From NCBI GenBank assembly GCA_947494195.1, contig CANLUC010000004.1:186188-250187 (forward strand): a DNA stretch of 64,000 nt, read 5' to 3'. Made by a program: the position numbers and the translations under genes. The notes under the pieces were generated by a model that was given only the letters and a program-made list of their open reading frames with translations, searched no databases and was not told the DNA's origin. Shown here in pieces: positions 24,577 through 43,670 of the stretch. How positions within the stretch are numbered: position 1 is the stretch's first letter; the number at the start of each line of letters is the position of its first letter. This DNA is from an uncultured Nesterenkonia sp. GTDB taxonomy: Bacteria; Actinomycetota; Actinomycetes; Actinomycetales; Micrococcaceae.

Positions 24577-25487
24577 TCACCGCAGCCAATGCCTATGTCT
24601 GTGTGTGCACGTTTCGGCGTCCGGAACCGCTCGCGCAGCTGCTGAGCTCCCTGCGCGCCCAGGAGCGCGTCGCGCTGCCGAACCTGATCGTGGTGGACAA
24701 CTCGCCCAGCGGTGATGCGCAGGCCCAGGTCACAGACCAGTATCCCGAGGCTCGGTATGTCCACGAGTCGCGGCCGGGCATCGCCGCGGCGCGCAATGCG
24801 GCCCTGGAGGCGGTGCCGGAGGACGCGCAGGCGGTGTTGTTCCTCGACGACGACGAACGGGCCGCCGCGAATTGGCTGGCCACGCTGCTCGACTGCGCGA
24901 ACGAGTCCGGGGCGGACACCGTCTCGGGGCCGGTGATCTCACACTTCGGCGAGGATCCCCCGAGATGGCTTCAGGAGTCCGGTTTCATCCGGCGCACCGA
25001 TTTCCCCACCGGGCCCTGGGGCTACCGTCCCGCGACCAACAATGTGCTCGTCCGCGCCGCCTGGTTCCGCGAAGCAGGGTTCCGCTTCGATGAGGCCTTC
25101 AGCTTCATCGGAGGCGAAGACTCGGACCTCTTCGGACGGATGCAGGCGGCGGGCGCACGGTCCTGGTGGTGCGCCGAAGCGGTCGTCGTCGAAGATGTGC
25201 CCGCCGAGCGCCTGAGCCCCGCCTGGATGCGCCAGCGCGGACTTCGGGCCGGGCATGTGCGCGCGATGAAGCTGATTCGTCGCGCCGACCGGGACCATCC
25301 GGGCCTCGGGCTGCGGGCGCGGATCGCCGGTGAAGGTCTCGGCCGCATCGGCTACGGGCTCGCGCGCACCGCGGCGCGGCGCCTGAGACGGGCACCCGTG
25401 CGGTATGTGGACAGCATCTACCACCGGGAGGGTCTGGGCATGCTCCAGGCAGCGGCTGGACGACGCTACGAGGAATACCGCCGCTGA
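24573..25487 (+). CDS. Family 2 glycosyltransferase
   Basis: This is a GT-A fold enzyme of 304 aa. CVCTFRRPEPLAQLLSSL begins the nucleotide-binding domain, IVVDNSPSGD is the first acidic motif and VLFLDDDERAAANWL contains the metal-binding DxD. SFIGGEDSDLFGRMQAAG is the conserved acceptor/catalytic ED segment. GTG 24573 is coupled to the GT4 gene. The 3' end overlaps the opposing large glycosyltransferase by 22 nt. Confidence 0.9.
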   Translation: MITAANAYVCVCTFRRPEPLAQLLSSLRAQERVALPNLIVVDNSPSGDAQAQVTDQYPEARYVHESRPGIAAARNAALEAVPEDAQAVLFLDDDERAAANWLATLLDCANESGADTVSGPVISHFGEDPPRWLQESGFIRRTDFPTGPWGYRPATNNVLVRAAWFREAGFRFDEAFSFIGGEDSDLFGRMQAAGARSWWCAEAVVVEDVPAERLSPAWMRQRGLRAGHVRAMKLIRRADRDHPGLGLRARIAGEGLGRIGYGLARTAARRLRRAPVRYVDSIYHREGLGMLQAAAGRRYEEYRR

Positions 25488-28400
25488 ACCGCCAGCCAGT
25501 AGGCCGTCTCCGCCGCAGTGATGCCCCAGTGCTCTCTCGCGCGCCGATGCACCCGCTCCACCTCGGCGGCCACCTCGCGCAGCGCATCAACCTGATCAGC
25601 CGACCGGGGTTTCAGTGTGCGGCGATACAAGACGCCGGCTCCCCGGCCCCAGCGCGTGCGCTTGAGCTGGTCCAGCTGCACGGTCGCGGCCGCGCGCGCT
25701 CGGCGCTTGAGCCGCCCCGCCACCGGTCGCAGCTTTCGGGCTGAGGGCAGCCGGCGCTGACCGAAGAACTGCAGCGCCTCCGGAGTGCTCCACCGGTGCT
25801 GGCCCGGATCCCCGACGTAGAACGCTGCGATCTCTCGCAGCACCTCGGCAGCCTCCGTCCGCTGGGGCGTGGGCACCCGCGAGTACTTCCACAGGTACCA
25901 GGTGACGAAGAAGTGCTCGAAGCGGGTGTCCAGATAGTCCTGCAGCAGCCCTTCCTCCTTGAGCCAGGCGGATCGCGCGGCCTCCAGGATCAGGTACTTG
26001 CGGAAGTAGCTGGGGGTCACGACGTTGACGATCGAGGTGTCCACCGCGCCGTAGTAGATATAGACCGGCCGATCGACCGGGATGTAGGCGCGCGCGTGGA
26101 AGAGCAGCTGCTGGAAGAAGAAGGTGTCCTGCCCGGTGGCGCCCTCCGGCTGGGTCAGTCCCAGACCCTGCAGCCAGGCGGTGCGGGCGAGCAGTCCTTC
26201 GATGGAGGCTGGGCGGAAGCGGATCCCGCGCAGCGAGTCGCGCGTGGGCCAGCAGAGCCCGGCCCGCCGTTCGATCGCGGAGTACCACTCGTGGACCGGG
26301 AGGACCATGTGCCGGTCGGTCCAGGTGACCTGGGTGCCGAGCGCGAAGTCGGCCTCGGGGTGCTCGGTGAGGCTCCGCTGCAGCTCGTGATAGCCGGCCT
26401 CAAGCTCCTCATCGTCGGGATCAAGGTAGGTGACGAACTCCGTGGCGGCGAGCTCCAGGCCCGTGTTGCGCGGTCGGGATGCCGAGCCGGAGCCCCCGGT
26501 GTGGTGGCGGAAGGCGAACACATTGGGGTGGGCTCGTGCGAGCTCCTCCACGGTGGCCACGGTGACCGGATCGGTGGAGCCGTCGTCGACCAGCAGCACG
26601 TGGGTGCGGGGGAAGTGCGGTGAACGGCGCAGCGAGGCGAAGGTCTTATGACGCAGGTGGTCACCGTTGTTGTAGACCGGGACGATCACGGACAGCTCGA
26701 GGTCCTCGGCCTGCGCTGCCTGGCGGACCTGTTCCTTGGCAGCAGTGAGCTCATCCCCGGGGTGCGGCAGCGCAGCGGGCAGCAGGCCTGCATCCCGGAG
26801 GGATGCCGCAGGCGCATGCCCCAGGTGATCGATGGCGTAGACCCGAGCGTCCTGCCCTGAGGCCGCCAGCACAGGGGCGGAGACGAGTGCAGCCGGCTCG
26901 GGGCGCCACCACGCGGTCAGCCCCAGGTCCGGCCCCAGGTCCAGCCCCATGTCATGGGACTCAGGGAGTGAAGCGAGACCACGGTGGTGCCGATGAGCCC
27001 AGCCGTCGGCCTCCGCCGCGGATCCGCTGAGCTTCGTGGTGATCGTCGCCGACTGGTAACGGAACGCGGCCACGTGGTCGGCCGCGTAGTGCGGCAGATA
27101 CCGCCGCCTCGCATCCAGCGGCAGCAGCACATCGATCTGGCGGGCGAGCGGGTCCGCAGCGCGGGCGCCCAGCTCATCCCAGGTCAGCAGTTCCACCTGC
27201 CCCAGACCACGCGCCGCCAGGTCCTGCGCCGCCATGTCCTGGGCGAGCTCCGGGGTGACCGTTTCCGCCACGGCCACGACCAGCTCCTGCTGGGGAGGCT
27301 CTGCCTTGCCGGCGATCCGACCCACGCGAGCGAGCAGATCGGAGACGTGGTGGCGCAGGAAGACCTCCCGGACGCCGTCGCCCTGGGCCCGGCGCAGCTC
27401 CTCGAGGTCGAGCGCGCGCAGGCTCTCCTGGACATCCGCCGAAGAGTTCGCGATGCGCACCTGCGGGTGATACGAGTTCAGGCCCTGGTTGTAGCTCGAG
27501 AGCACCAGGGTTCCGGAGGCCTGCAGCTCCAGCGCCCGGTTGGCGAACATCGTCTGGGAACCGATCACCGAATTCAGGTTCACCGCGATGTCCACCACGC
27601 GCTGGAGGTCCATGAGCTGGTGGTGGTCGATGGCGGGGACCCGGTAGGGCCAATACTTGACCGGGATCAGCTGGTTGCCGCTGAGCATCGGCTGCGCCGA
27701 GTCGAGCTGGGCGGAGATCTCCTCCCACCAGCGGTCCACGATCGCCAGCGGCCGACCCGCGGCGAGCACACCGTCGAGGATCCATTCCGCGAAGCGGGCC
27801 CGCTCGGGGTACTTCTTCCCCATCCAGGAGCCGGCGAAGAAGACCAGTTCGCGCGCCTGGGCCGGGGCGCTGCGCGAGCCGATCGGGGAGTGCAGGAGCG
27901 GATTGACCCCGAAGGGCAGCACCTCGATGGTGTGCGCGGCCGGGCAGTCGCGCCGATAGTCCTCGATGACCTCGGCGGCCGTGGTGAGGATGTGGTCACA
28001 GGCCCTGGCCACATCCAGGAACTGGCGGTAGTCCGGCGGGTCCTCCTTGCCGTAGTAGACCGGGGGAGCACCCGCGTCCCGGAAGGCCGGGATGATGGTG
28101 TTGATCAGGAGTCGACGGCGCGCAGGAGCCTCGGGGGAGGTGTTGTCCCAGGAGCGTCCATCGTGACCGCGCCAGGTGGCGGCGACCAGCAGCAGATCCA
28201 CCTCGCCCAGGTGGTTCTGCCAGTTCTCAGGCGTGATCGGGAACAGCTGGGCCGAGCCTGAGTAGGTGTCGAAGAGGAACCGGTCGCAGATGATCCCGAT
28301 CCGCAGGTCCAGCGGCGGCCTTGAGACGCCGGCCTCCGTGGAGGGCAGCTGTGCGGCGGCGGCCTGTGCGGCGGCGAGCGAGTCCTGGACCGGCTGGGCG

Positions 28401-28708
28401 GCCAGCGGGGCGGCGAGCGGGGCGTCAGGGGCCTCAAGCGCCTCAGCGGCGGCAGAGTCCTGGGCCGCATCACTCTCTGCGGCGGTGTGTGCCCTGCGGC
28501 GCAGATCAGCGGCGCGCTCGCGGTGCGCCCGTTCCAGCGGAGCCCAGAGCTGCTCGTGGTGCGCTGAGCTGGAGAGTTCGTGAGCCGCGGCCTCGTGCGC
28601 CTGAGCTGCCCGCTGCGCCGTCGACGCGATCGCGGAGGTCTCAGAGGCCTCGGCGGCGGCAACAGGGTCGCTGGCGGACTGTGCGGAGGCTTCGTCTGGG
28701 CGATTCAC
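25466..28708 (-). CDS. Large two-domain glycosyltransferase (CgeB-like plus GT2)
   Basis: A 1080-residue protein with three parts. Residues 1-135 are Ala/Glu-rich low complexity, probably helical. About 140-480 is a CgeB-like GT-B domain (IGIICDRFLFDTYSGSAQLF, VYYGKEDPPDYRQFLDVA, FANRALELQASGTLVLSS). About 660-900 is a GT2 domain (LSVIVPVYNNGDHL, LLVDDGSTDPVTVATVEEL, FVTYLDPDDEELEAGYHEL). A C-terminal helical tail follows. Two transferase domains in one chain suggest sequential sugar additions, as in teichoic-acid-type or capsule polymerases. The start is GTG 28708 with TAGTGT 6 nt upstream. It opposes the LCP/GT operon and shares its 3' end. Confidence 0.88.
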   Translation of the reverse strand: MNRPDEASAQSASDPVAAAEASETSAIASTAQRAAQAHEAAAHELSSSAHHEQLWAPLERAHRERAADLRRRAHTAAESDAAQDSAAAEALEAPDAPLAAPLAAQPVQDSLAAAQAAAAQLPSTEAGVSRPPLDLRIGIICDRFLFDTYSGSAQLFPITPENWQNHLGEVDLLLVAATWRGHDGRSWDNTSPEAPARRRLLINTIIPAFRDAGAPPVYYGKEDPPDYRQFLDVARACDHILTTAAEVIEDYRRDCPAAHTIEVLPFGVNPLLHSPIGSRSAPAQARELVFFAGSWMGKKYPERARFAEWILDGVLAAGRPLAIVDRWWEEISAQLDSAQPMLSGNQLIPVKYWPYRVPAIDHHQLMDLQRVVDIAVNLNSVIGSQTMFANRALELQASGTLVLSSYNQGLNSYHPQVRIANSSADVQESLRALDLEELRRAQGDGVREVFLRHHVSDLLARVGRIAGKAEPPQQELVVAVAETVTPELAQDMAAQDLAARGLGQVELLTWDELGARAADPLARQIDVLLPLDARRRYLPHYAADHVAAFRYQSATITTKLSGSAAEADGWAHRHHRGLASLPESHDMGLDLGPDLGLTAWWRPEPAALVSAPVLAASGQDARVYAIDHLGHAPAASLRDAGLLPAALPHPGDELTAAKEQVRQAAQAEDLELSVIVPVYNNGDHLRHKTFASLRRSPHFPRTHVLLVDDGSTDPVTVATVEELARAHPNVFAFRHHTGGSGSASRPRNTGLELAATEFVTYLDPDDEELEAGYHELQRSLTEHPEADFALGTQVTWTDRHMVLPVHEWYSAIERRAGLCWPTRDSLRGIRFRPASIEGLLARTAWLQGLGLTQPEGATGQDTFFFQQLLFHARAYIPVDRPVYIYYGAVDTSIVNVVTPSYFRKYLILEAARSAWLKEEGLLQDYLDTRFEHFFVTWYLWKYSRVPTPQRTEAAEVLREIAAFYVGDPGQHRWSTPEALQFFGQRRLPSARKLRPVAGRLKRRARAAATVQLDQLKRTRWGRGAGVLYRRTLKPRSADQVDALREVAAEVERVHRRAREHWGITAAETAYWLAVQRRYSS

Positions 28709-30735: not shown

Positions 30736-30836
30736 GATGGTGCCGCCGCAGGGATCGACGCAAGGAATGGCTCAGGGGAAGGCTGAGGGGATGGGCAGGA
30801 GTGGAACACCTCTGGGATGAGCGACGGGGGTCGCGA

Positions 30837-30842
30837 TAGGCT
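30837..30842 (+). promoter_or_regulatory. -10 hexamer of polA
   Basis: TAGGCT ends 7 nt before GTG 30850. No -35 or ribosome site is evident, so polA may be leaderless. Confidence 0.4.
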
Positions 30843-30849
30843 TAGGCGC

Positions 30850-33717
30850 GTGTCAACTAGCCCCCATAAACTCCTGGTCATCGACGGTCACTCCATGGCG
30901 TTCCGGGCCTTCTACGCCCTGCCCACGGAGAGCTTCCTCACGGATTCCGGCCAATACACCAACGCGGTGCATGGCTTCACGAACATGCTGCTCAAGCTGA
31001 TCCGCGAGGAGCTCCCCACCCATGTGATCCTCGCCTTCGACCTGGACACCCCCACCTTCCGGCACACCTCCTACGCCGAATACAAGGGCGGCCGTGCGAA
31101 GACTCCCGAGGAGTTTCGCGGCCAGATCGACCTGATCCAGCAGGTCGCCGAGGGGATGAACATCGCGGTGGTGACCCTGGAGGGCTACGAGGCCGATGAC
31201 ATCGTCGCCACTTACGCCACCCGCGCGGACACCGCCGGCTGGGAGACCCTGATCGTCTCCGGGGACCGCGACACCCTGCAGCTGGTCACCGAACGGACCA
31301 CGCTGATGTACCCCACCTCGGGCCTGTCCAAGGTCGCGATGCTGGACCCGGCGGCCGTGGAGGAGAAGTACCTGGTCCCGCCGCTGAAGTATCCGGACCT
31401 GGCCGCACTGGTGGGGGAGTCCGCGGACAACCTCCCCGGAGTGCCGAAGGTGGGCCCGAAGACGGCCGCGAAATGGATCGCGGAATACGGCTCCACCCGC
31501 GGCATCATCGAGAATGCCGATTCCATCGGTGGCAAGGCCGGAGAGAACCTGCGCGAGGCGCTCGCCGATGTGGAGCGCAACCTGGAGCTGAACCTGCTGC
31601 TGCGCGACCTCGATCTCCCCGTGGCGCTGGAGGACTCCGAGCTGCAGCTCCCCGACCGTGAGGTCCTGGATCCGCTCTTCGACGCGCTGCAGTTCAACCA
31701 GATCCGGGAACGGCTCTTCGAGACCTTTTCCGCGCGCTTCCCCGAGGCCGTGGTGGCGCCCGAGCCCACCGAGGCCCTGCCTGCTGTCACCGTGACCGAG
31801 CAGGCCGATGAACTGGCAGCTTTCCTGGAGACCCATGCCGGGGCGCCGATGGCGATCGCGGTCTGTCTGGACCGCAGCGGCGAATCGCTGACCACCAAGC
31901 CCAAGCGGGACGAGGCCGCCCGGGTGGCGGAGGCGCTCGCCGTCGTGCTGGTGCCCTCGGCCTCCGGGGAGGTGGTGCCGGCTCCCGAAGGGGCGAAGCC
32001 CACCGACGACGCCGGGGAGTCCGCCGCGGAGCCGACCGGCATCCCTGCCATGGCGGTGTCGTTGAGCGCCCTGGACGCAAAGGCTGATGCAGTGCTCGCG
32101 GAGTGGCTGGAGGATCCTGAGGCGCCGAAGCTGGTCCACGACCTCAAAGACGCCGGTAAGCGGCTGGCCTGGCGCGGGCTGCACCTGCGGGGGGCCGTGG
32201 AGGACACGCTGATCTCTGGCTACCTGATCCAGCCCGATCGGCGGAACTTCGCCTTCACCGAGCTGGTCACCCAGTACCTGGGTGCCTCCACCGATCCGGC
32301 TTCCTACCTCGGGGGCCACAGCGCCGACGACGCCGAGGCGCCCGGTTCACAGGGGCCTGACCTGTTCTCCTCCCAGGATCTGCTTCCCGGGGTCACCGCC
32401 GAAGACCTGGACGCCGCGGCCCTGCACGGGATGCTCCTGCATCAGCTCTCCCAGGCGCTGGGGGAGCAGCTGGTGGAGCGCAACGGTGAGAAGCTGCTGC
32501 GCGAGATGGAGATCCCGCTGGCCGAGATCCTGCTGCAGATGGAGCTCACCGGCATCGCCGTGAGCACCGAGAAGCTGGACTCGCTGGACGCGGAGTTCGC
32601 CGCCGCCATCGAACAGTCGGCGCAGGACGCCTACGCCGTGGTCGGACATGAGGTGAAGCTCGGCTCGCCCAAACAGCTGCAGACCGTGCTCTTCGAGGAG
32701 CTCGAGCTGCCCACCGCCGGGGTGAAGAAGAACAAGACCGGCTACTCCACCGATGTGGAGACCCTGCAGGCGCTGCTGATCAAGACACAGAACGACTTCC
32801 TGGTGCACCTGATGAATCACCGGGACTCGTCGAGGCTGCGCCAGACCGTCACGGGGCTGACCGATACGGTCACCGGGGATGGGCGGATCCACACCACCTA
32901 CGCGCAGACCGTGGCCGCCACCGGTCGCCTCTCCTCACTCAATCCGAACCTGCAGAACATTCCGGTGCGCACCGCCGCGGGACGGAAGATCCGCGACGCC
33001 TTCGTGGTCGGCTCCGGCTACGAGACCCTGCTCACCGCGGACTACTCGCAGATCGAGATGCGCATCATGGCGCACCTGTCTCAGGACCAGGCGCTGATCG
33101 AGGCGTTCCGGGCGGGGGAGGACCTGCACAGTTTCGTCGGTTCGCGGGTCTTCGGGGTGGAGGCCTCCGAGATCACGCCCGAGCAGCGCTCCAAGGTCAA
33201 GGCGATGAGCTACGGGCTGGCCTATGGGCTCTCCAGCTTCGGGCTCTCCAAGCAGCTGGGCATCGGGGTCGATGAGGCCCGGAACCTGATGAACGAATAC
33301 TTCGAGCGCTTCGGCGGAGTCCGGGACTATCTGCGCGAGGTGGTCACCCAGGCCAAGAAGGACGGGTTCACCTCGACCATCTTCGGGCGACGCCGCTACC
33401 TGCCGGATCTGACCAGTGAGAATCGGCAGCTGCGCCAGATGGCTGAACGCGCCGCGCTGAACGCCCCCATCCAGGGCTCTGCGGCGGACATCATCAAGCA
33501 GGCGATGATCGGCGTGGATTCAGCCATGCGCGCCGAGGGGCTCGAGTCCCGGCTACTGCTGCAGGTCCACGATGAGCTCATCTTCGAGGTGGCGGCGGGA
33601 GAGCGCCAGGCCCTGGAGACCCTGGTGGTGACCCATATGGGCGCCGCCGCCGAACTCGACGTCCCGCTGGACGTGCATGTGGGCGTGGGCTCCTCCTGGC
33701 ACGAGGCCGCACACTGA
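30850..33717 (+). CDS. polA: DNA polymerase I
   Basis: PolA fills gaps in excision repair and removes Okazaki primers. Residues 1-300 are the 5'-3' exonuclease (LLVIDGHSMAFRAFYALP, GYEADDIVATYA, SGDRDTLQLV). About 305-520 is a decayed 3'-5' exonuclease: the DxE metal motif is absent, as in other actinobacterial PolA, so it cannot proofread. The polymerase core has motif A (ADYSQIEMRIMAHL, near 732), the O-helix (RSKVKAMSYGLAYGLSSFG) and motif C (LLQVHDELIFEV, near 905). GTG 30850 is used; the upstream frame adds MSDGGRDRLRR only. In mycobacteria rpsA lies directly downstream; here 5 kb of accessory genes intervene. Confidence 0.97.
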   Translation: MSTSPHKLLVIDGHSMAFRAFYALPTESFLTDSGQYTNAVHGFTNMLLKLIREELPTHVILAFDLDTPTFRHTSYAEYKGGRAKTPEEFRGQIDLIQQVAEGMNIAVVTLEGYEADDIVATYATRADTAGWETLIVSGDRDTLQLVTERTTLMYPTSGLSKVAMLDPAAVEEKYLVPPLKYPDLAALVGESADNLPGVPKVGPKTAAKWIAEYGSTRGIIENADSIGGKAGENLREALADVERNLELNLLLRDLDLPVALEDSELQLPDREVLDPLFDALQFNQIRERLFETFSARFPEAVVAPEPTEALPAVTVTEQADELAAFLETHAGAPMAIAVCLDRSGESLTTKPKRDEAARVAEALAVVLVPSASGEVVPAPEGAKPTDDAGESAAEPTGIPAMAVSLSALDAKADAVLAEWLEDPEAPKLVHDLKDAGKRLAWRGLHLRGAVEDTLISGYLIQPDRRNFAFTELVTQYLGASTDPASYLGGHSADDAEAPGSQGPDLFSSQDLLPGVTAEDLDAAALHGMLLHQLSQALGEQLVERNGEKLLREMEIPLAEILLQMELTGIAVSTEKLDSLDAEFAAAIEQSAQDAYAVVGHEVKLGSPKQLQTVLFEELELPTAGVKKNKTGYSTDVETLQALLIKTQNDFLVHLMNHRDSSRLRQTVTGLTDTVTGDGRIHTTYAQTVAATGRLSSLNPNLQNIPVRTAAGRKIRDAFVVGSGYETLLTADYSQIEMRIMAHLSQDQALIEAFRAGEDLHSFVGSRVFGVEASEITPEQRSKVKAMSYGLAYGLSSFGLSKQLGIGVDEARNLMNEYFERFGGVRDYLREVVTQAKKDGFTSTIFGRRRYLPDLTSENRQLRQMAERAALNAPIQGSAADIIKQAMIGVDSAMRAEGLESRLLLQVHDELIFEVAAGERQALETLVVTHMGAAAELDVPLDVHVGVGSSWHEAAH

Positions 33718-33784: not shown

Positions 33785-34495
33785 TCAGCGGCTGAAGAGT
33801 GCTCCGAGCCCCTCGGCGCGAGCCGGGTGGCCGGCCAGACGGAGCCCGTGCCAGGCGGTGACCTGGTTCGCAGTGAGCACAGGGGCACCCAGGGCCTCCT
33901 CGAGCCGGGGCAGCACGGCGATCGTGTGCAGCGCAGTGTCGGGGATCAGCAGGCACTGCGCGCCGGTCAGATCGGCGGCTCGCGCAGTCTCGAGCACCCA
34001 CTCGGCGTCCAGCAGCCCCGCATCCTCGCCGCTGGGAACGTCGTAGGTGGACAGTGCGCCCACCGTGATCCCGTTCTCCTCGAGGAAACGCACGAAGTGC
34101 GACGCGACCGCCTCAGGGTAGGTCGCGGCCACGGCGACCCTGCTCAGCCCCAGGTGGTGGACCGCTTCGGCGAAGGCCAGAGAGGTGGAGGACGACGGGG
34201 CCCCGGACGCTTCCTCGATCCATCTCGCCTGCTCTCGGCAGCCATCCAAGCCATATACGAAGCTGCCCGAGGTGCACGCCCAGATCGCGGCTCCGGGGGC
34301 GAACTCGCCGGCCCTCTCGGCGGAAGGCGTCAGCGTCTCTCGCGATCCCAAGGTGAGCAGTGAGTCGACGTCGTGGTGGGTGCTGCCTTCCCAGGTATGG
34401 ATCACCTGGAAGGAGGCATCCGGAATGAGCTGTTCCAGGGCGGGGAACTCGTCCTCCGCGCTGTATCCGGGATAGAGGATGGCGAGAGTGTGCAT
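33785..34495 (-). CDS. Asp/Glu racemase-fold (maleate isomerase-like) paralogue lacking the second Cys
   Basis: Maleate isomerase/arylmalonate decarboxylase-type protein of 236 aa. Such enzymes use one or two cysteines for cofactor-free proton transfer on dicarboxylic acids. The first site is kept (IWACTSGSFVYG, Cys74). At the second site, where the paralogue at 35325 has VVSCTNLP, this protein has LLIPDTALH, so Asp186 takes the place of the Cys. PVLTANQVTAWHGL matches the conserved C-terminal region. ATG 34495 starts MHTLAILYPGY. It is divergent from the DUF3830 gene and shares the palindromic interval. The activity is probably altered: decarboxylase-like, a regulatory subunit, or inactive. 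Confidence 0.82.
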   Translation of the reverse strand: MHTLAILYPGYSAEDEFPALEQLIPDASFQVIHTWEGSTHHDVDSLLTLGSRETLTPSAERAGEFAPGAAIWACTSGSFVYGLDGCREQARWIEEASGAPSSSTSLAFAEAVHHLGLSRVAVAATYPEAVASHFVRFLEENGITVGALSTYDVPSGEDAGLLDAEWVLETARAADLTGAQCLLIPDTALHTIAVLPRLEEALGAPVLTANQVTAWHGLRLAGHPARAEGLGALFSR

Positions 34496-34551
34496 AGTGG
34501 TGGAAGGCCCTCTCAGGGTGCGTCGCGTGTCTCTCCAAGAACCTACAGGTA

Positions 34552-34565
34552 GATTGTAGACAATC
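34552..34565. promoter_or_regulatory. GntR-like palindrome in the racemase/DUF3830 interval
   Basis: GATTGTAGACAATC is a perfect 6-2-6 inverted repeat, and its TTGTAGACAA core resembles sites of GntR regulators of the FadR/VanR type. It lies between divergent genes starting at 34495 and 34614, so one regulator could control both. No regulator gene is adjacent. Confidence 0.6.
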
Positions 34566-34613
34566 ATAGGGTGTTGTCTCATGGCGCCCGAAGCTCGTCG
34601 AATGGAGATCCTC

Positions 34614-35126
34614 ATGGCCCGGTACCTCACCATCACCCTTGAGAAGCGCGGCGTCACCGCGCGGGCTCGCCTGCTCGACGAAGAGGCCCCGCGCACCGCC
34701 GAGGCCGTATGGCAGGCCCTGCCCCAGTCCGGACAGGTGATCCATGGCAAGTTCGCGCGCAACGAGATCTACGCCCTGGTCCCCGCCTTCGCACCCGAGG
34801 AACCCGGACCCGAGAATCAGACGATCACGCCGATCCCGGGGGACCTGTGCTACTTCACGTTCGAAGGGGTGCTCGACAACCCCGCCTACGGCTACGACGC
34901 CTCCGCAGGCACAGCCGAGAATCGATTGCTGATTGATCTTGCCGTCTTCTACGGGCGCAACAATCTGCTGGTCAACGGTGACGTCGGGTGGGTCCCGGGG
35001 AATGTGTTCGCCACGATCGAAGAGGGGCTCGCCGAGCTTGCCGCCGCATGCCAGGACGTGTGGATGGGTGGTGCCAGGGGAGAGACGCTGAGCTTCGCCC
35101 GCGCTGAGACGCCCGAGGGTGACTGA
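34614..35126 (+). CDS. DUF3830 family protein (cyclophilin-like fold)
   Basis: A 170-residue soluble protein recognised as DUF3830 by its N-terminal RYLTITLEKRGVTARARLLD, the central GDLCYFTFEGV and the segment NRLLIDLAVFYGRNNLL. The family has a cyclophilin-like barrel with no proven activity. It often sits beside amidase, racemase or hydantoinase-type genes. ATG 34614 is 6 nt after GGAG; the frame continues 11 codons upstream without family similarity. It is flanked by two Asp/Glu-racemase-fold paralogues, and its partner in metabolism is probably their substrate or product. Confidence 0.82.
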   Translation: MARYLTITLEKRGVTARARLLDEEAPRTAEAVWQALPQSGQVIHGKFARNEIYALVPAFAPEEPGPENQTITPIPGDLCYFTFEGVLDNPAYGYDASAGTAENRLLIDLAVFYGRNNLLVNGDVGWVPGNVFATIEEGLAELAAACQDVWMGGARGETLSFARAETPEGD

Positions 35127-35196
35127 TCTGACAGACCTGCACGACCCTCGGCCGTTCTCGCTGCAGCATCCTGGACTGTGTTCACCTGGCTGAAAC

Positions 35197-35213
35197 CTCC
35201 CAACGGGTGGGAG
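35197..35213. promoter_or_regulatory. Small hairpin/palindrome before the second racemase-fold gene
   Basis: CTCCCA and TGGGAG form a perfect 6-bp inverted repeat with a 5-nt loop. TATAGT follows at 35218-35223 as a possible -10. It may be an operator or a structured end of the DUF3830 transcript. Nothing else is seen in the 198-nt gap. Confidence 0.3.
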
Positions 35214-35324
35214 CCCCTATAGTCGGAATCTCCAGCACAATGAGTGCGGTTCAGCTGTCATGGCGCACCTCTCAGGACTGTCGTTTTCGCCAGTTCAACC
35301 ACCATGCGATTCATTGGAGTGAAC

Positions 35325-36161
35325 ATGACATTGGAAGCCCAGGGACTGCTGTCCGGCCCGCCTTCCCGCTCGGCGCTCGGTGTGGTCATGCCATTCGACA
35401 TGGAGCTCGACGCGGAGCTGTGGCGCTGGGTCCCCGCAGACGTCGACCTGCTGGTGACACGGACGCCGTTCGTGGAGGCCGTCGTCACCGTGGAATTTGC
35501 GCAGGAGGTGGCGCAGGCGGGAGTCGTCACGGATGGAGTCCGCAGTGTCATCGCCGGCCGCGCGGACGTGGTCCTCTACGCCTGCACGTCAGGAAGCTTC
35601 GTGCGTGGTCGGGCAGGACAGGAGGAGCTCGTGCGCGCGATGACCGACGCCGGCTCGCGTGACGCGGTGACCTCGTCCGGCGCGATCGTCGAGGCTCTCG
35701 GCGCCCTCGGGATCACGCGTGTCGCCACGGCCACGCCCTATCTGCCGTCTCTGTCTCTTCTGCTGGAATCGTTCCTCAACGAGTACGGAGTCACCGTGAC
35801 CGGCAGCGCCGAGCTCGGACTCGACCGGCGCATCTGGGAGGTTCCCTACGCGCAGACTGCGGAGCTGATCCGTCTGGCTGACACCCCCGACGCCCAGGCC
35901 ATCGTGGTGAGCTGCACCAATCTTCCGACGTATGACCTCATCGCACCTCTGGAGATGGAACTGGGAAAGCCGATCATCACGGCCAACCAGGCCATCGTGT
36001 GGGCCGGACTCCGGCGACTGGGAAAGCTCGCGAAAGGCGAAGGGCAGTCACTGCTGTGGGCCCCGGCGCACCGCGATCAGCCCGGGACCGGGCCGACGGA
36101 GCGGTATTCTCTCCTCTCGCTCCCCCCGGAGCCTCTCGCCGGCACCGTTGTTCCGTCCTGA
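35325..36161 (+). CDS. Asp/Glu racemase / maleate isomerase family protein
   Basis: A 278-residue member with both catalytic-type cysteines: Cys87 in LYACTSGSFVRG and Cys197 in IVVSCTNLPTYD, the pair used by maleate cis-trans isomerase and Asp/Glu racemases. KPIITANQAIVWAGLRRLGK closes the fold. There is an N-terminal extension of about 15 residues and a 30-residue tail (GPTERYSLLSLPPEP) not common to the family. ATG 35325 has GGAG 6 nt upstream. It follows DUF3830 by 198 nt in the same direction. A dicarboxylate isomerase or racemase role is likely; the substrate is not determined. Confidence 0.85.
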   Translation: MTLEAQGLLSGPPSRSALGVVMPFDMELDAELWRWVPADVDLLVTRTPFVEAVVTVEFAQEVAQAGVVTDGVRSVIAGRADVVLYACTSGSFVRGRAGQEELVRAMTDAGSRDAVTSSGAIVEALGALGITRVATATPYLPSLSLLLESFLNEYGVTVTGSAELGLDRRIWEVPYAQTAELIRLADTPDAQAIVVSCTNLPTYDLIAPLEMELGKPIITANQAIVWAGLRRLGKLAKGEGQSLLWAPAHRDQPGTGPTERYSLLSLPPEPLAGTVVPS

Positions 36162-36237: not shown

Positions 36238-36888
36238 TCAGGGCACGGTGACCAACCCAGAAGCCAGATCGCTGACGCGGGCCCGCAGGGCTTCACGGAC
36301 GGCGCGCACGCCTTCGAGATCCAGCTCGGCCGGGTCGCTGATGTTCCAGTCCTCGTACTTCTTGCCGGGATAGATCGGGCAGGTGTCTCCACATCCCATG
36401 GTGATGGCGACGTCCGCGGCTTGGACGACGTCGTCGGTGAGCGGCTTGGGGAACTCCTCGCCGAGGCTGACCCCGATCTCCTCCATCGCGGTGACGACAT
36501 TCTCCTCGAGATGCTCTGCCGGCATCGATCCCGCGGAGCGGACATTGATCGCTCCTTGGGTGAGGTCGCGGAGAAGCGCGGCAGCCATCTGGGAGCGTCC
36601 GGCGTTCTGCACGCAGACGAAGAGGACTTCCGGGACGCCACTGGGCCGCATGCCTTTGGCATGGGCGAGCGCGTTCAGTCGATCCTGAGCGAAGCGGCGC
36701 GTGAGGATCGGCAGGTAGGTCTTGATCTTCGCTGTTCGGGCGAGGGCTGCATAGGACTCAAAGACATAGCGTTCGATCGTCTCCGCGGCGAAGACGCCCG
36801 TAAAGGTCGCGGCGAGTTCTTCGCTGATGCGGTGCAGGACGTGTTCGTGGGGGCCGGTGGGAGCGTCGGTCTGCGGTGATGTGCTCAC
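36238..36888 (-). CDS. arsC: Arsenate reductase, mycothiol/thioredoxin type
   Basis: A low-molecular-weight phosphatase-fold ArsC with an N-terminal three-helix domain (residues 10-75, EELAATFTGVFAAETIERYV) as in corynebacterial arsenate-mycothiol transferases. The active-site P-loop is CVQNAGRS (Cys92) and the second Cys region is MGCGDTCPIYPGKKYEDW. It would reduce arsenate to arsenite for export. No arsR, acr3 or arsB gene is in the window, so the exporter must lie elsewhere. The promoter region at 36984-37022 has an inverted repeat that could be an ArsR-type site. Confidence 0.92.
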   Translation of the reverse strand: MSTSPQTDAPTGPHEHVLHRISEELAATFTGVFAAETIERYVFESYAALARTAKIKTYLPILTRRFAQDRLNALAHAKGMRPSGVPEVLFVCVQNAGRSQMAAALLRDLTQGAINVRSAGSMPAEHLEENVVTAMEEIGVSLGEEFPKPLTDDVVQAADVAITMGCGDTCPIYPGKKYEDWNISDPAELDLEGVRAVREALRARVSDLASGLVTVP

Positions 36889-38774: not shown

Positions 38775-40283
38775 ATGACCACCACCACCAACGCCCCACA
38801 GGTCGCCGTCAATGACATCGGCACCGCAGAAGAGTTCCTCGCCGCTGTAGATGCGACTATGAAGTACTTCAACGACGGAGACCTCGTAGAGGGCACCATC
38901 GTCAAGGTCGACCGCGACGAGGTCCTCCTCGACATCGGGTACAAGACCGAAGGCGTCATCCCGTCCCGCGAGCTCTCCATCAAGCATGATGTGAACCCGG
39001 ACGAAGTCGTCGCCGTCGGCGATCTAGTGGAGGCTCTGGTCCTCACCAAGGAGGACAAAGAAGGCCGCCTGATCCTCTCCAAGAAGCGCGCACAGTACGA
39101 GCGCGCCTGGGGCGACATCGAGCGCATCAAGGAAGAGGACGGCGTCGTCTCCGGCACCGTGATCGAGGTCGTCAAGGGCGGCCTCATCCTCGACATCGGT
39201 CTGCGCGGCTTCCTGCCCGCATCGCTGGTCGAGATGCGCCGTGTCCGCGATCTCGCGCCCTACATCGGCCAGGAGATCGAAGCCAAGATCATCGAGCTGG
39301 ACAAGAACCGCAACAACGTGGTCCTGTCCCGCCGTGCATGGCTCGAGCAGACCCAGTCCGAGGTCCGCTCCTCCTTCCTCAACAAGCTCGAGCGCGGTCA
39401 GGTCCGCACCGGCACCGTCTCTTCGATCGTCAACTTCGGTGCGTTCGTGGATCTCGGCGGCGTCGACGGTCTGGTTCACGTCTCAGAGCTGTCCTGGAAG
39501 CACATCGATCACCCGAACGAGGTTGTCGAGGTCGGCCAGGAAGTCACCGTCGAGGTCCTCGAGGTGGATATGGACCGCGAACGCGTCTCCCTGTCGCTCA
39601 AGGCCACGCAGGAAGACCCATGGCAGACCTTCGCCCGCACTCATGCACTGGGCCAGGTCGTCCCCGGCAAGGTCACCAAGCTGGTGCCCTTCGGTGCATT
39701 CGTCCGCGTGGAAGACGGCATCGAAGGCCTCGTGCACATCTCCGAGCTGGCAGTGCGCCACGTTGATCTGGCCGAGCAGGTCGTCTCCGTGGGTGACGAG
39801 CTCTTCGTCAAGGTCATCGACATCGACCTCGAGCGCCGCCGCATCAGCCTCTCCCTGAAGCAGGCCAACGAAGGTGTCGACCCCGAGGGTGCAGAGTTCG
39901 ACCCCGCCGTCTACGGCATGGATGCCGAGTACGACGACGCCGGCAACTACAAGTACCCCGAGGGCTTCGACCCGGAGACCAACGAGTGGATGGAAGGCTA
40001 CGACGAGCAGCGTTCCGTCTGGGAGGCCCAGTACGCCAAGGCCCAGGAGCGTTGGGAAGCGCACAAGAAGCAGGTCGTTGCGGCTATCGAGGCCGACGCC
40101 GAGGCTGCCGCCCAGGCAACCGTCGGTTCCAGCTCCTCGAGCAGCAGCAGCTCCAGCAGCAAGTCGGAGCCTGCTCCGTCGAACTACTCATCCTCGCAGA
40201 ACACCACCACTGAGGATGCCGGCACGCTGGCCTCCGATGAGGCACTGGCTGCTCTGCGCGAGAAGCTCACCGGAAACGGCTGA
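38775..40283 (+). CDS. rpsA: 30S ribosomal protein S1
   Basis: S1 binds mRNA at the 30S subunit. Four S1 (OB-fold) domains are visible at about residues 35-105 (GTIVKVDRDEVLLDIGYKTE), 120-188, 207-278 (GTVSSIVNFGAFVDLGGVDG) and 292-363 (GKVTKLVPFGAFVRVEDGIE), the usual actinobacterial number. After about residue 375 comes an acidic Tyr/Glu-rich region and then a tail with an 11-residue Ser run near 454, followed by TTTEDAGTLASDEALAALRE. ATG 38775 begins MTTTTNAPQVAVNDIG, the family N-terminus. A long leader precedes it and a strong terminator follows. Confidence 0.98.
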   Translation: MTTTTNAPQVAVNDIGTAEEFLAAVDATMKYFNDGDLVEGTIVKVDRDEVLLDIGYKTEGVIPSRELSIKHDVNPDEVVAVGDLVEALVLTKEDKEGRLILSKKRAQYERAWGDIERIKEEDGVVSGTVIEVVKGGLILDIGLRGFLPASLVEMRRVRDLAPYIGQEIEAKIIELDKNRNNVVLSRRAWLEQTQSEVRSSFLNKLERGQVRTGTVSSIVNFGAFVDLGGVDGLVHVSELSWKHIDHPNEVVEVGQEVTVEVLEVDMDRERVSLSLKATQEDPWQTFARTHALGQVVPGKVTKLVPFGAFVRVEDGIEGLVHISELAVRHVDLAEQVVSVGDELFVKVIDIDLERRRISLSLKQANEGVDPEGAEFDPAVYGMDAEYDDAGNYKYPEGFDPETNEWMEGYDEQRSVWEAQYAKAQERWEAHKKQVVAAIEADAEAAAQATVGSSSSSSSSSSSKSEPAPSNYSSSQNTTTEDAGTLASDEALAALREKLTGNG

Positions 40284-41820: not shown

Positions 41821-41882
41821 TCCATAGCGTAGGAACGATCACCCGCCGGTCGGGCCTCAGCCAGACACTATGAAAGGCAATG

Positions 41883-43670
41883 ATGCTGCTCCGCCTCCAC
41901 GATTTCTTCAGGTTGAGAACCAGCCCGATCCTGTTCTTCGGATCTGCTGCCATCGTCATCGGGTTCGTGATCCTGACCCTGCTCATTCCCACCGGAATGG
42001 GCGACTTCTTCGGGGCAGGGTCCTCCTGGATCTACGAGAACCTCGGCTGGTTCTACATCTCCGGTGTGACCATCTTCCTGATCTTCCTGATCTATAAGGC
42101 CTCGGGCCGCTTCGGGCGTATCAAGCTCGGCGCCGACGGCGACGAGCCCGAGCATTCCGACGTCGCCTGGTTCGGGATGCTCTTCGCCGCAGGCATCGGC
42201 ACCATCCTGATGTTCTGGGCCGTCGCCGAACCCGCCAACCACTTCGCCAACCCTCCGCGCGGAGAGCAGATGGGCGTGGAGCCGCGCTCCATGGAGGCCG
42301 CCAACGAGGCCATGGGCTTCACGCTCTACCACTTCGGCCTGCACACCTGGACGATCTTCGCGCTGCCGGGACTGGCCTTCGCCTACTTCATCTACAAGAG
42401 GAACCTGCCCCCGCGGGTCTCCTCGATCTTCCAGCCGATGCTCGGCGACAAGATCCACGGCCCCATCGGCAAGGGCATCGACATCCTGGCGATCGTGGGC
42501 ACCATCTTCGGTGTGGCCGTCTCGATCGGGCTGGGCACCCTGCAGATCCACGCCGGGCTCGCCAACCTGCTGGGCATCAGCGACTCCGCCTGGAACTTCA
42601 TCATGATCATCGCGGTGGTCACCGTGATCGCCACGATCTCCGCGGTTCTCGGCGTCGACAAGGGCATCAAGCGGCTCTCGAACTTCAACATCTGGACCGC
42701 CATCGCGCTGCTGCTCTTCGTGCTGATCACCGGTCCCACCGTGTTCATGCTGCGCGGCATGATCGAGTGGACCGGCGTCTACGTCTCGATGCTTCCGGAA
42801 CTCGCGTTCTGGAACGACACGCTCGCCGACACCGGCTGGCAGAACTCCTGGACCATCTTCTACTGGGCCTGGACTGTAGCCTGGGCGCCCTTCGTGGGCA
42901 TCTTCATCGCCCGCATCTCCCGCGGGCGCTCCGTGCGTCAGTTCGTGGCCGGCGTGCTGGGACTGCCCACGCTGTTCACGATCATCTGGTTCGGGATCTG
43001 GGGTGCGGGCGTCTTCGACATCGAGCTCAACGGTGATGGGGGACTGGTGGACACCGTGCTGGACGACGGCGTCGAGGGTGCGCTCTTCGCGTTCCTCAAC
43101 GAGTTCCCGCTGGCCACCCTGACCTCCTCGATCGCCATCATGCTGGTGGGCATCTTCTTCGTCACCTCCATGGACTCCTGCTCACTGGTCCTCGATGACA
43201 TGTGCAACGGCTATGAGGGCAAGGCCCCGCTGCACCAACGAGCCTTCTGGACCATCGCCATCGGCACCATCGCGGCCGTGCTGCTCACCGCCACCGGTGA
43301 AGGTGGCCTGGCCGCGCTGCAGAACGTGGCCCTGGTCCTGGGGCTTCCGTTCTTCATCCTGGGCTACTTCATGATGTACAACCTCTCCCGCGCCATGCGG
43401 GAGGACGCCGGTGAGATCGGCTTCCTGAGGACCCGCCGCTGGCTCAAGACGCTTCCCCCCGAGGAGTACGAGCGTCGCATGGAGGAGCCGGACGAGTCGC
43501 TGCAGGAAGCCGTGGTCGCCCCGGACTATCACGAGGGCACCCAGCCGGAGAATGCCCCGGACGTGGACCACGCCGATCAGCCGCCGATCGTGGAGCAGTA
43601 CCGGGTGCGCACCGGCGATCTGCCCACGGTCGGGCCGAGGGACCCAGGGGGCCCTCACGTGAGTCACTGA
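41883..43670 (+). CDS. BCCT-family betaine/carnitine/choline transporter
   Basis: A 595-residue integral membrane protein with about twelve membrane segments that takes up quaternary-amine compatible solutes. Family marks are GMLFAAGIGTILMFWAVAEP (the glycine-rich third helix), FNIWTAIALLLFVL and WTIFYWAWTVAWAPFVGIF (the conserved Trp-rich eighth helix). A polar C-terminal tail of about 70 residues could sense osmolarity, as in BetP. The Met/Asp choices usual in the third-helix motif (GMGIG/D) are replaced by GIGTI, so coupling ion and substrate are uncertain. ATG 41883 is preferred over 41880, with GAAAGG 5 nt upstream. Confidence 0.93.
   Translation: MLLRLHDFFRLRTSPILFFGSAAIVIGFVILTLLIPTGMGDFFGAGSSWIYENLGWFYISGVTIFLIFLIYKASGRFGRIKLGADGDEPEHSDVAWFGMLFAAGIGTILMFWAVAEPANHFANPPRGEQMGVEPRSMEAANEAMGFTLYHFGLHTWTIFALPGLAFAYFIYKRNLPPRVSSIFQPMLGDKIHGPIGKGIDILAIVGTIFGVAVSIGLGTLQIHAGLANLLGISDSAWNFIMIIAVVTVIATISAVLGVDKGIKRLSNFNIWTAIALLLFVLITGPTVFMLRGMIEWTGVYVSMLPELAFWNDTLADTGWQNSWTIFYWAWTVAWAPFVGIFIARISRGRSVRQFVAGVLGLPTLFTIIWFGIWGAGVFDIELNGDGGLVDTVLDDGVEGALFAFLNEFPLATLTSSIAIMLVGIFFVTSMDSCSLVLDDMCNGYEGKAPLHQRAFWTIAIGTIAAVLLTATGEGGLAALQNVALVLGLPFFILGYFMMYNLSRAMREDAGEIGFLRTRRWLKTLPPEEYERRMEEPDESLQEAVVAPDYHEGTQPENAPDVDHADQPPIVEQYRVRTGDLPTVGPRDPGGPHVSH

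Follow-up and report, generated by a model that had tools for sequence, protein, structure and literature searches.

In a stretch of 64,000 nucleotides from an uncultured Nesterenkonia sp., which we call the window, three neighbouring genes code for P0001 and P0003, two paralogues that belong by their sequence to the arylmalonate decarboxylase (AMDase)/EutA family, and, between them, for P0002, a protein of the family DUF3830 (Table 1). We term the paralogues Cys/Asp and Cys/Cys, after the residues found at the first and second active-site places of the fold. In our understanding the trio forms one part of a catabolic regulon that is dispersed over three places in the genome, is most likely repressed by a GntR-type protein carrying an FCD sensor domain and has an ectoine-type compound as its leading substrate, a reading to which we assign a probability of roughly 0.55. 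The other two parts would comprise, first, a GntR gene together with genes for a D-2-hydroxyacid dehydrogenase and for an amidase and, second, those of a class III aminotransferase and of a dehydrogenase of the succinate-semialdehyde type, each part behind the same operator. It is because this operator recurs at three dispersed loci that the trio can be placed in a split catabolic regulon, and its membership there, taken by itself, seems to us nearly certain.

The palindrome and the genes that it joins

The divergent promoter of P0001 and P0002 carries two arms of six bases each, GATTGT and ACAATC, on either side of an AG spacer. The initial annotation had placed there a perfect palindrome preceding the DUF3830 gene; the arms are indeed symmetric, but the spacer is not palindromic, and the site precedes P0001 as well as DUF3830. 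TTGTNNACAA occurs only once in the window, and ATTGTNNACAAT is unique in it even when one mismatch is allowed (0.14 occurrences being expected from shuffles). Over the 2.78 Mb of the genome, GATTGTNNACAATC is found in exactly three copies where base composition would lead us to expect 0.019 (probability of three or more about 1e-6), and the reversed-pattern control in none. Besides the copy of the trio, a second one, on another contig (L147), occupies the promoter between the GntR gene and the D-2-hydroxyacid dehydrogenase gene of a dehydrogenase-amidase locus, and the third is in the promoter region from which the genes of a class III aminotransferase and a semialdehyde dehydrogenase diverge.

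A survey of 119 fetched loci (2.28 Mb in all, some loci being repeated) yielded 195 sites for ATTGTNNACAAT, against 0 or 1 for each of seven control patterns, and 171 of these sites were upstream of module genes, that is, between -40 and 260 bases before the gene. Such a site was found for 41/49 aminotransferase and 22/41 semialdehyde dehydrogenase genes, as well as for 39/42 hydroxyacid dehydrogenase genes identified with a first query (a second query gave 0/41, a row to which we attach no weight, the called start being too long). The proportion was 39/86 for Cys/Cys genes, 52/116 for Cys/Asp, 29/96 for DUF3830, 10/97 for the amidase and 7/86 for GntR, genes located inside operons not being expected to have a site of their own. 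Sites also preceded 8/21 EhuB, 6/11 RidA, 5/14 M24 and 5/23 MFS genes, and none of the genes for the GlnQ-type ATPase (42), AT1 (16) and M20 (16). Several of the 11 unassigned sites proved, on inspection, to be GntR or dehydrogenase promoters. A palindrome due to chance was rejected on the genome-wide count and the control patterns, and we consider the element to be probably an operator. Among 147 related genomes it is present in 52 (the reversed control in six, with one match each), namely in 26 of the 31 that possess DUF3830 and in 26 of the 116 that do not; related genomes are not independent, so that all P values given here are descriptive.

The regulator is most likely a repressor of the GntR family with an FCD domain, which would bind the palindrome. 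The protein of one cluster (L108) scores 84.3 with FCD (cut-off 24.3) and 61.4 with GntR (cut-off 27), and the GntR protein of the Nesterenkonia genome is 65% identical to that of another cluster (L033) according to tblastn. The TTGT and ACAA boxes of the palindrome fit the pattern of FadR/FCD-type regulons as the available text of PMC4494728 gives it, with the difference that two bases separate the GT and AC boxes here, whereas three are typical there; the targets that we consider do not figure in that text.

Fuller clusters in other genomes add GntR, the D-2-hydroxyacid dehydrogenase and the amidase to the trio, and often the class III aminotransferase and the semialdehyde dehydrogenase. When 80 named loci were taken together with up to 10 kb of sequence on either side, the amidase was found in 68, DUF3830 in 65, GntR in 60, the hydroxyacid dehydrogenase (with either query) in 57, the aminotransferase in 38, the semialdehyde dehydrogenase in 29 and an EutD-like M24 gene in 13. 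The amidase family NF004815 is over its cut-off in 38 of the 147 relatives, that is, in 30 of the 31 with DUF3830 against 8 of the 116 others (P 9e-23), and in the 31st (G009) the amidase is split over two reading frames. Three Kribbella loci (L101, L115, L142), read by eye, associate the Cys/Asp gene and GntR with a distant second type of amidase and a MerR-like gene, and two of them (L115, L142) with an MFS transporter as well.

The middle gene of the trio scores 217.2 bits with DUF3830 (PF12903, gathering cut-off 26), and its product matches the structure 3kop, listed as an uncharacterised protein, over nearly its full length (E 1.2e-81). Residues invariant in 16 sequences, such as H44, R49, N50, E51, D77, D108, R115, N116, N117 and D123, look like those of an active site, and P0002 would be a putative enzyme of the same route as its neighbours. 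That DUF3830 belongs to the same system as the racemase-fold genes had been proposed initially, and this is borne out by the common operator and by the genome profiles: among the 147 relatives DUF3830 is over cut-off in 31, and a Cys/Asp orthologue (332 bits or more) is present in the identical 31 and in none of the 116 others, all 31 having in addition a second, weaker match to the Cys/Asp profile. Profile matches of 77-83 bits (G056, G066, G067, G083) were left out as non-orthologues, and a DUF3830 match below cut-off (G073, 7.9e-4) was scored as absent. Accidental neighbourhood of DUF3830 and the racemases was rejected on these profiles.

The co-occurrence expected by the initial annotation holds for DUF3830 of the window type and fails for its distant relatives. 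In a sample of 396 genomes of the phylum, DUF3830 is present in 43; with the Cys/Asp profile at most seven candidates were scored per genome, so that missing weak matches to it are no proof of absence. Nineteen of the 43 have the window type (>180 bits); a Cys/Asp orthologue (240 bits or more) accompanies it in 18 of these, and G347, the one left, has a single match of 109 bits, in the score range of the second paralogue. By contrast, the Cys/Asp profile finds nothing at E 1e-20 in 23 of the 24 genomes whose DUF3830 is a distant one (115 bits or less), and the remaining one (G350) has a weak match of 87 bits. Near-complete pairing in the first case and near-absence in the second therefore tie the system to one subfamily of DUF3830. 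One genome of the sample holds three DUF3830-like matches in tandem (G319:C23:24402-25787). Searches of plasmids gave no close relative of the trio, the one DUF3830 record standing at 30.7% and the 216 racemase-fold records all below 60%; for a Caballeronia DUF3830 gene, no racemase gene is listed within 9 kb in a gene table that is incomplete.

Two paralogues with different active-site residues

The coordinates, strands and motifs initially given for the two paralogues agree with the sequence. P0001 has WACTSGSF with Cys74 and IPDTAL with Asp186, and P0003 has YACTSGSF with Cys87 and SCTNLP with Cys197. They are 35% identical over 172 aa (BLASTP, E 2e-23), and this alignment places Cys74 opposite Cys87 and, as had been claimed, the aspartate of P0001 opposite the second cysteine of P0003. 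When a profile of 21 members of the P0001 family is matched to AMDase structures, Cys74 comes onto Gly74 and Asp186 onto Cys188 (AMDase numbering as in the available text of PMC6563808), and neither alignment puts the cysteine of P0001 elsewhere, which would have spoken against the initial claim. Both proteins are above the gathering cut-off of Pfam Amdase (PF17645, 25.9) with 82.5 bits for P0001 and 93.9 bits for P0003, and below those of the Asp/Glu racemases (PF01177: 15.4 and 26.2, cut-off 31) and of the arylmalonate decarboxylase equivalog (NF052327: 80.2 and 89.9, cut-off 225 bits). Plain filing of the pair as AMDase or as EutA was rejected, the scores being under the equivalog cut-offs (those for EutA are given below). 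The AMDase signature of Gly74 with a single Cys188 is found in neither; P0003 has the two active-site cysteines seen in two EutA sequences, and P0001 lacks the second of them, as it lacks the second cysteine of the maleate isomerase pattern.

AlphaFold models have a mean pLDDT of 92.7 for P0001 and of 82.2 for P0003, where prediction is poor at the N-terminal end and in the C-terminal tail. The top folds of the Protein Data Bank for the P0001 model (Foldseek, TM 0.85-0.89) are the maleate cis-trans isomerases of Nocardia farcinica and Pseudomonas putida, which are the closest, and the AMDase of Bordetella bronchiseptica (TM 0.85), a member of the same Pfam family. The first cysteine of the maleate isomerases is one that we take to match Cys74, and their second one (Cys194 or Cys200, according to the titles of the structures) would be an aspartate in P0001 if the alignment follows that with AMDase. 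The title of 2xed has a C194S maleate isomerase crystallised with a covalent succinyl-cysteine intermediate, so that it is the other thiol that bonds the substrate there. Compared with the natural Gly74/Cys188 of AMDase, P0001 has its thiol at the first place, as do the engineered forms G74C/C188G, which is S-selective according to the available text of PMC6563808, and G74C/C188S, known from the title of the structure 3ixl.

Homologues were counted at 110 loci, 30 picked by DUF3830 alone and 80 by the Cys/Asp profile (four of the latter, L067-L070, repeat loci of the former). Because the 80 named loci were picked with two peptide patterns, one of which contains the first cysteine motif, the second residue makes the freer test. 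In the alignment of 208 homologues, from which one segment of 42 residues (L095) was dropped and in which four rows contain an X, the first place is cysteine in all, and the second is aspartate in 109, cysteine in 99 and nothing else, the residue agreeing with the best-matching reference in 208 out of 208. A tree of 68 rows, made by a quick method and with long outgroup rows, unites 33 Cys/Asp rows (SH-aLRT 92) and, separately, 29 Cys/Cys rows (97), the latter on the side of EutA (98); the EutA proteins of Rhizobium etli and Leisingera, Cys/Cys like P0003, group with its clade. The substitution first noticed in a single protein is thus real and kept throughout one clade, and aspartate at this place looks like an unusual state of the fold. 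It is hardly credible that we have to do with ordinary paralogues of relaxed function, aspartate being the result of drift and the neighbourhood that of chance: nothing beyond the low sequence identity speaks for this, and the restriction to aspartate or cysteine in every homologue, the single tree group formed by each type, the complete co-occurrence among relatives and the palindrome common to the loci all speak against it. Drift as the origin of the aspartate was rejected on the residue counts and the tree. A Cys/Cys protein of Rhizobium jaguaris falls, on a long branch, on the Cys/Asp side, so that beyond the counted loci the residue does not always have to follow the clade.

By analogy with EutA, P0003 would be a two-thiol epimerase or racemase that inverts the carbon next to a carboxylate. 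P0001 keeps the first thiol and has a carboxylate in place of the second acid/base thiol; as the acidity of a carboxylate is not that of a thiol, a directed reaction is likelier here than a reversible two-base racemisation, and P0001 would probably perform a one-directional proton transfer, an isomerisation or an elimination rather than free racemisation. Of the two suggestions made initially for the aspartate paralogue, a change of chemistry is thus plausible, and a partnership with P0003 is suggested on the sole basis of co-occurrence. Taken further, the second suggestion would have P0001 and P0003 form one mixed oligomer, with P0001 mainly as a structural or regulatory subunit, which we find unlikely. 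One Cys/Asp and one Cys/Cys gene do stand together in 99 of the 110 loci (29/30 of those chosen by DUF3830, 70/80 of those chosen by profile, the four repeats included), one locus having neither type, and the two profile matches of all 31 DUF3830 relatives would also fit a mixed oligomer. Yet 10 of the 110 stretches contain the Cys/Asp type alone (contig ends truncate some of them, and a partner gene could be elsewhere); six genomes of one genus in the phylum sample (G168, G335, G387, G324, G250, G507) have a single Cys/Asp orthologue, with no DUF3830 and no second match among the at most seven candidates scored; and Cys74, Asp186 and the surrounding motifs are invariant in the 21 aligned members, as in an active enzyme. 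The single apparent exception to the neighbourhood of DUF3830 and the racemases (L035, genome G038) has its Cys/Asp and Cys/Cys pair at a distance of about 85 kb, next to a palindrome that belongs to the pair.

Outside Actinobacteria, a Nitratireductor plasmid (L064, 8848-9621) codes for a Cys/Asp protein (ACTSGSF, IPDTAI) beside an alcohol dehydrogenase gene, DUF3830 not being listed within 9 kb in an incomplete gene table. The genus of the window itself holds two distinct lineages of the module (L033-L062), the window type, near that of Tersicoccus, and another one about 45% identical in P0001, which suggests replacement or transfer.

Ectoine or another substrate

In the ectoine route, as the available texts of PMC13188858 and PMC5924519 present it, EutD opens the ring, EutE removes acetate, and an aminotransferase and a semialdehyde dehydrogenase lead to aspartate; for EutA, one proposal was that it inverts the carbon bearing the hydroxyl group of hydroxyectoine, ahead of EutB and EutC, and in a later proposal EutABC act on opened hydroxy compounds. 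The pathway considered here would open and de-amidate a nitrogenous compound, the resulting omega-amino acid being then transaminated and its semialdehyde oxidised. Because the palindrome precedes EhuB-type and EutD-like genes in some other Actinobacteria, an ectoine-type osmolyte takes the lead, and we give ectoine, 5-hydroxyectoine or a close relative about an even chance of being the substrate.

Near Cys/Asp genes of Arthrobacter (L083), of Streptomyces (L119) and of Nonomuraea (L080, where neither DUF3830 nor Cys/Cys gave a match in the stretch) are encoded binding proteins over the EhuB cut-off of 190.9 (TIGR02995), the three scores being 264.5, 253 and 263.1. That of Arthrobacter is related in sequence to 2q88 (218.7 bits) and keeps, except for a tyrosine in place of Phe24, what we take to be the ligand contacts of that structure (Glu21, Phe24, Tyr60, Phe80 and Arg85, placed on the assumption of an offset of one). 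The structure 2q88 was solved with ectoines, according to the available text of PMC5924519. As for the palindrome, EhuB-like genes have its 12-base core upstream of them in three genomes, G038, G113 (where the protein is over the cut-off) and G095 (where it narrowly misses it with 182 bits); in G113 and G095, which have no DUF3830, it stands between GntR and the EhuB-like gene, and in G084 and G080, equally without DUF3830, it precedes EutD-like genes. When matches of >380 bits are counted as EutD-like (15 of the 147 genomes, the next match being at 192 bits) and those over the cut-off as EhuB (12 genomes), the palindrome is present, outside the genus, in 11/15 genomes with EutD-like against 13/102 without (one-sided P 2e-6), and in 7/12 with EhuB against 17/105 (P 0.003); over all 147 genomes the figures for EutD-like are 11/15 against 41/132 (one-sided P 0.002).

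A good number of observations weigh against this reading. Over all 147 genomes the link between palindrome and EhuB is weak (one-sided P 0.08), and outside the genus the palindrome is present in 4/8 genomes with DUF3830 against 20/109 others (P 0.05; for the amidase, 4/10 against 20/107, P 0.12). While 25 of the 30 palindrome loci fetched from relatives contain a clear module gene, five do not, four of them having none (L166, L177, L180, L181) and one a weak GntR match only (L178). The Nesterenkonia genome has no EutD/DoeA match (TIGR02993) at E 0.001; the EutD-like member of the Arthrobacter cluster reaches 416.3, for a cut-off of 613. The best EhuB-like protein of the Nesterenkonia genome has 156.3 bits, below the cut-off, and no palindrome is found in the 18.5 kb around the gene. 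DUF3830 is associated neither with EutD-like genes (3/31 against 12/116) nor with EhuB (2/31 against 10/116), and P0001 and P0003, with 67.1 and 94.1, are far below the equivalog cut-off of EutA (TIGR02990, 318 bits). Neither an amidase nor a hydroxyacid dehydrogenase, moreover, is known to take part in ectoine breakdown as described so far. A plain ectoine pathway in the Nesterenkonia genome is weakened as a candidate by the absent EutD match and the sub-cut-off EhuB. No EutB or EutC was recognised by eye in the loci read, no model having been run for them.

It is a substantial possibility, if short of an even chance, that the same regulon serves another substrate, its core enzymes breaking down an amide derived from an amino- or hydroxy-dicarboxylic acid, or else some other derivative of an omega-amino acid, and that the ectoine-type transporter and the EutD-like hydrolase joined it in some lineages only. 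This would suit the missing association of DUF3830 with EutD or EhuB and the amidase as most constant partner outside the trio, as well as the situation in the genus, where 23 of 30 genomes (our own included) have DUF3830 with Cys/Asp and none of the 30 has a EutD-like match above 380 bits or an EhuB over the cut-off. It would fit less well with the palindrome's place in front of EhuB-like and EutD-like genes where a genome has no DUF3830, and with the types of the aminotransferase and the semialdehyde dehydrogenase, which suit the last two ectoine steps as outlined in the available text of PMC13188858. Within the ectoine-type reading, though less likely than not, there would be an undescribed actinobacterial route under a GntR-FCD regulator, where a natural Cys/Asp enzyme of one-directional chemistry, an EutA-like Cys/Cys epimerase and DUF3830, as a new enzyme activity, would jointly take the place of EutB/EutC, and sometimes of EutD.

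Relation to eutABCDE and the surroundings of the trio

The proteobacterial eutABCDE system is the natural term of comparison, as its EutA has the fold family and, in two sequences, the cysteine pair of P0003, and as some actinobacterial loci have an EhuB-type transporter, an aminotransferase and a semialdehyde dehydrogenase nearby. It differs in its regulator, EnuR of the MocR type there and a GntR-FCD gene here, in the second cysteine that is aspartate in P0001, in the amidase, hydroxyacid dehydrogenase and DUF3830 that are added here, and in the EutD-like match that the present genome lacks. Clusters in Gram-positive bacteria, Actinomycetes included, are called putative in PMC13188858 (2026); DUF3830, amidase, Arthrobacter, Streptomyces and Nesterenkonia do not occur as words in its available main text. 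The open-licence literature searched has no paper with the word DUF3830, and 3KOP, PF12903 and related phrases gave nothing relevant there by title or abstract. DUF3830, which has had a structure but no function so far, would come to have seven partner genes in one defined regulon, along with an inducer that can be tested, and a natural Cys/Asp clade would be added to a fold in which the placement of cysteine has been engineered for stereoselectivity. If the link to ectoine is true, it would go some way towards explaining a use of ectoines by many soil Actinobacteria.

Table 1. Features of the trio and its flanks (positions in the window)
Feature	Description	Position	Strand	Length
P0001	AMDase/EutA-fold protein, natural Cys/Asp variant (Cys74, Asp186)	33785..34495	minus	236 aa
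Palindrome GATTGTAGACAATC	proposed GntR(FCD) operator in the divergent promoter P0001/DUF3830	34552..34565	no strand	
P0002	DUF3830 protein, sequence relative of structure 3kop	34614..35126	plus	
P0003	AMDase/EutA-fold two-thiol paralogue (Cys87, Cys197), groups with two EutA sequences	35325..36161	plus	278 aa
polA	name read by eye; one flank of the trio	30817-33717		
rpsA-like gene	name read by eye; other flank of the trio	38775-40283		

Directly after P0003, on the other strand, lies an open reading frame (36238-36888) that resembles, by eye, a low-molecular-weight phosphatase or arsenate reductase. Near the trio a gene like those of BCCT-type osmolyte transporters, also by eye, is found at 41880-43670, without a copy of the palindrome, and an open reading frame of 1080 aa at 25466-28708 has the appearance of a fusion of two glycosyltransferase-type domains.

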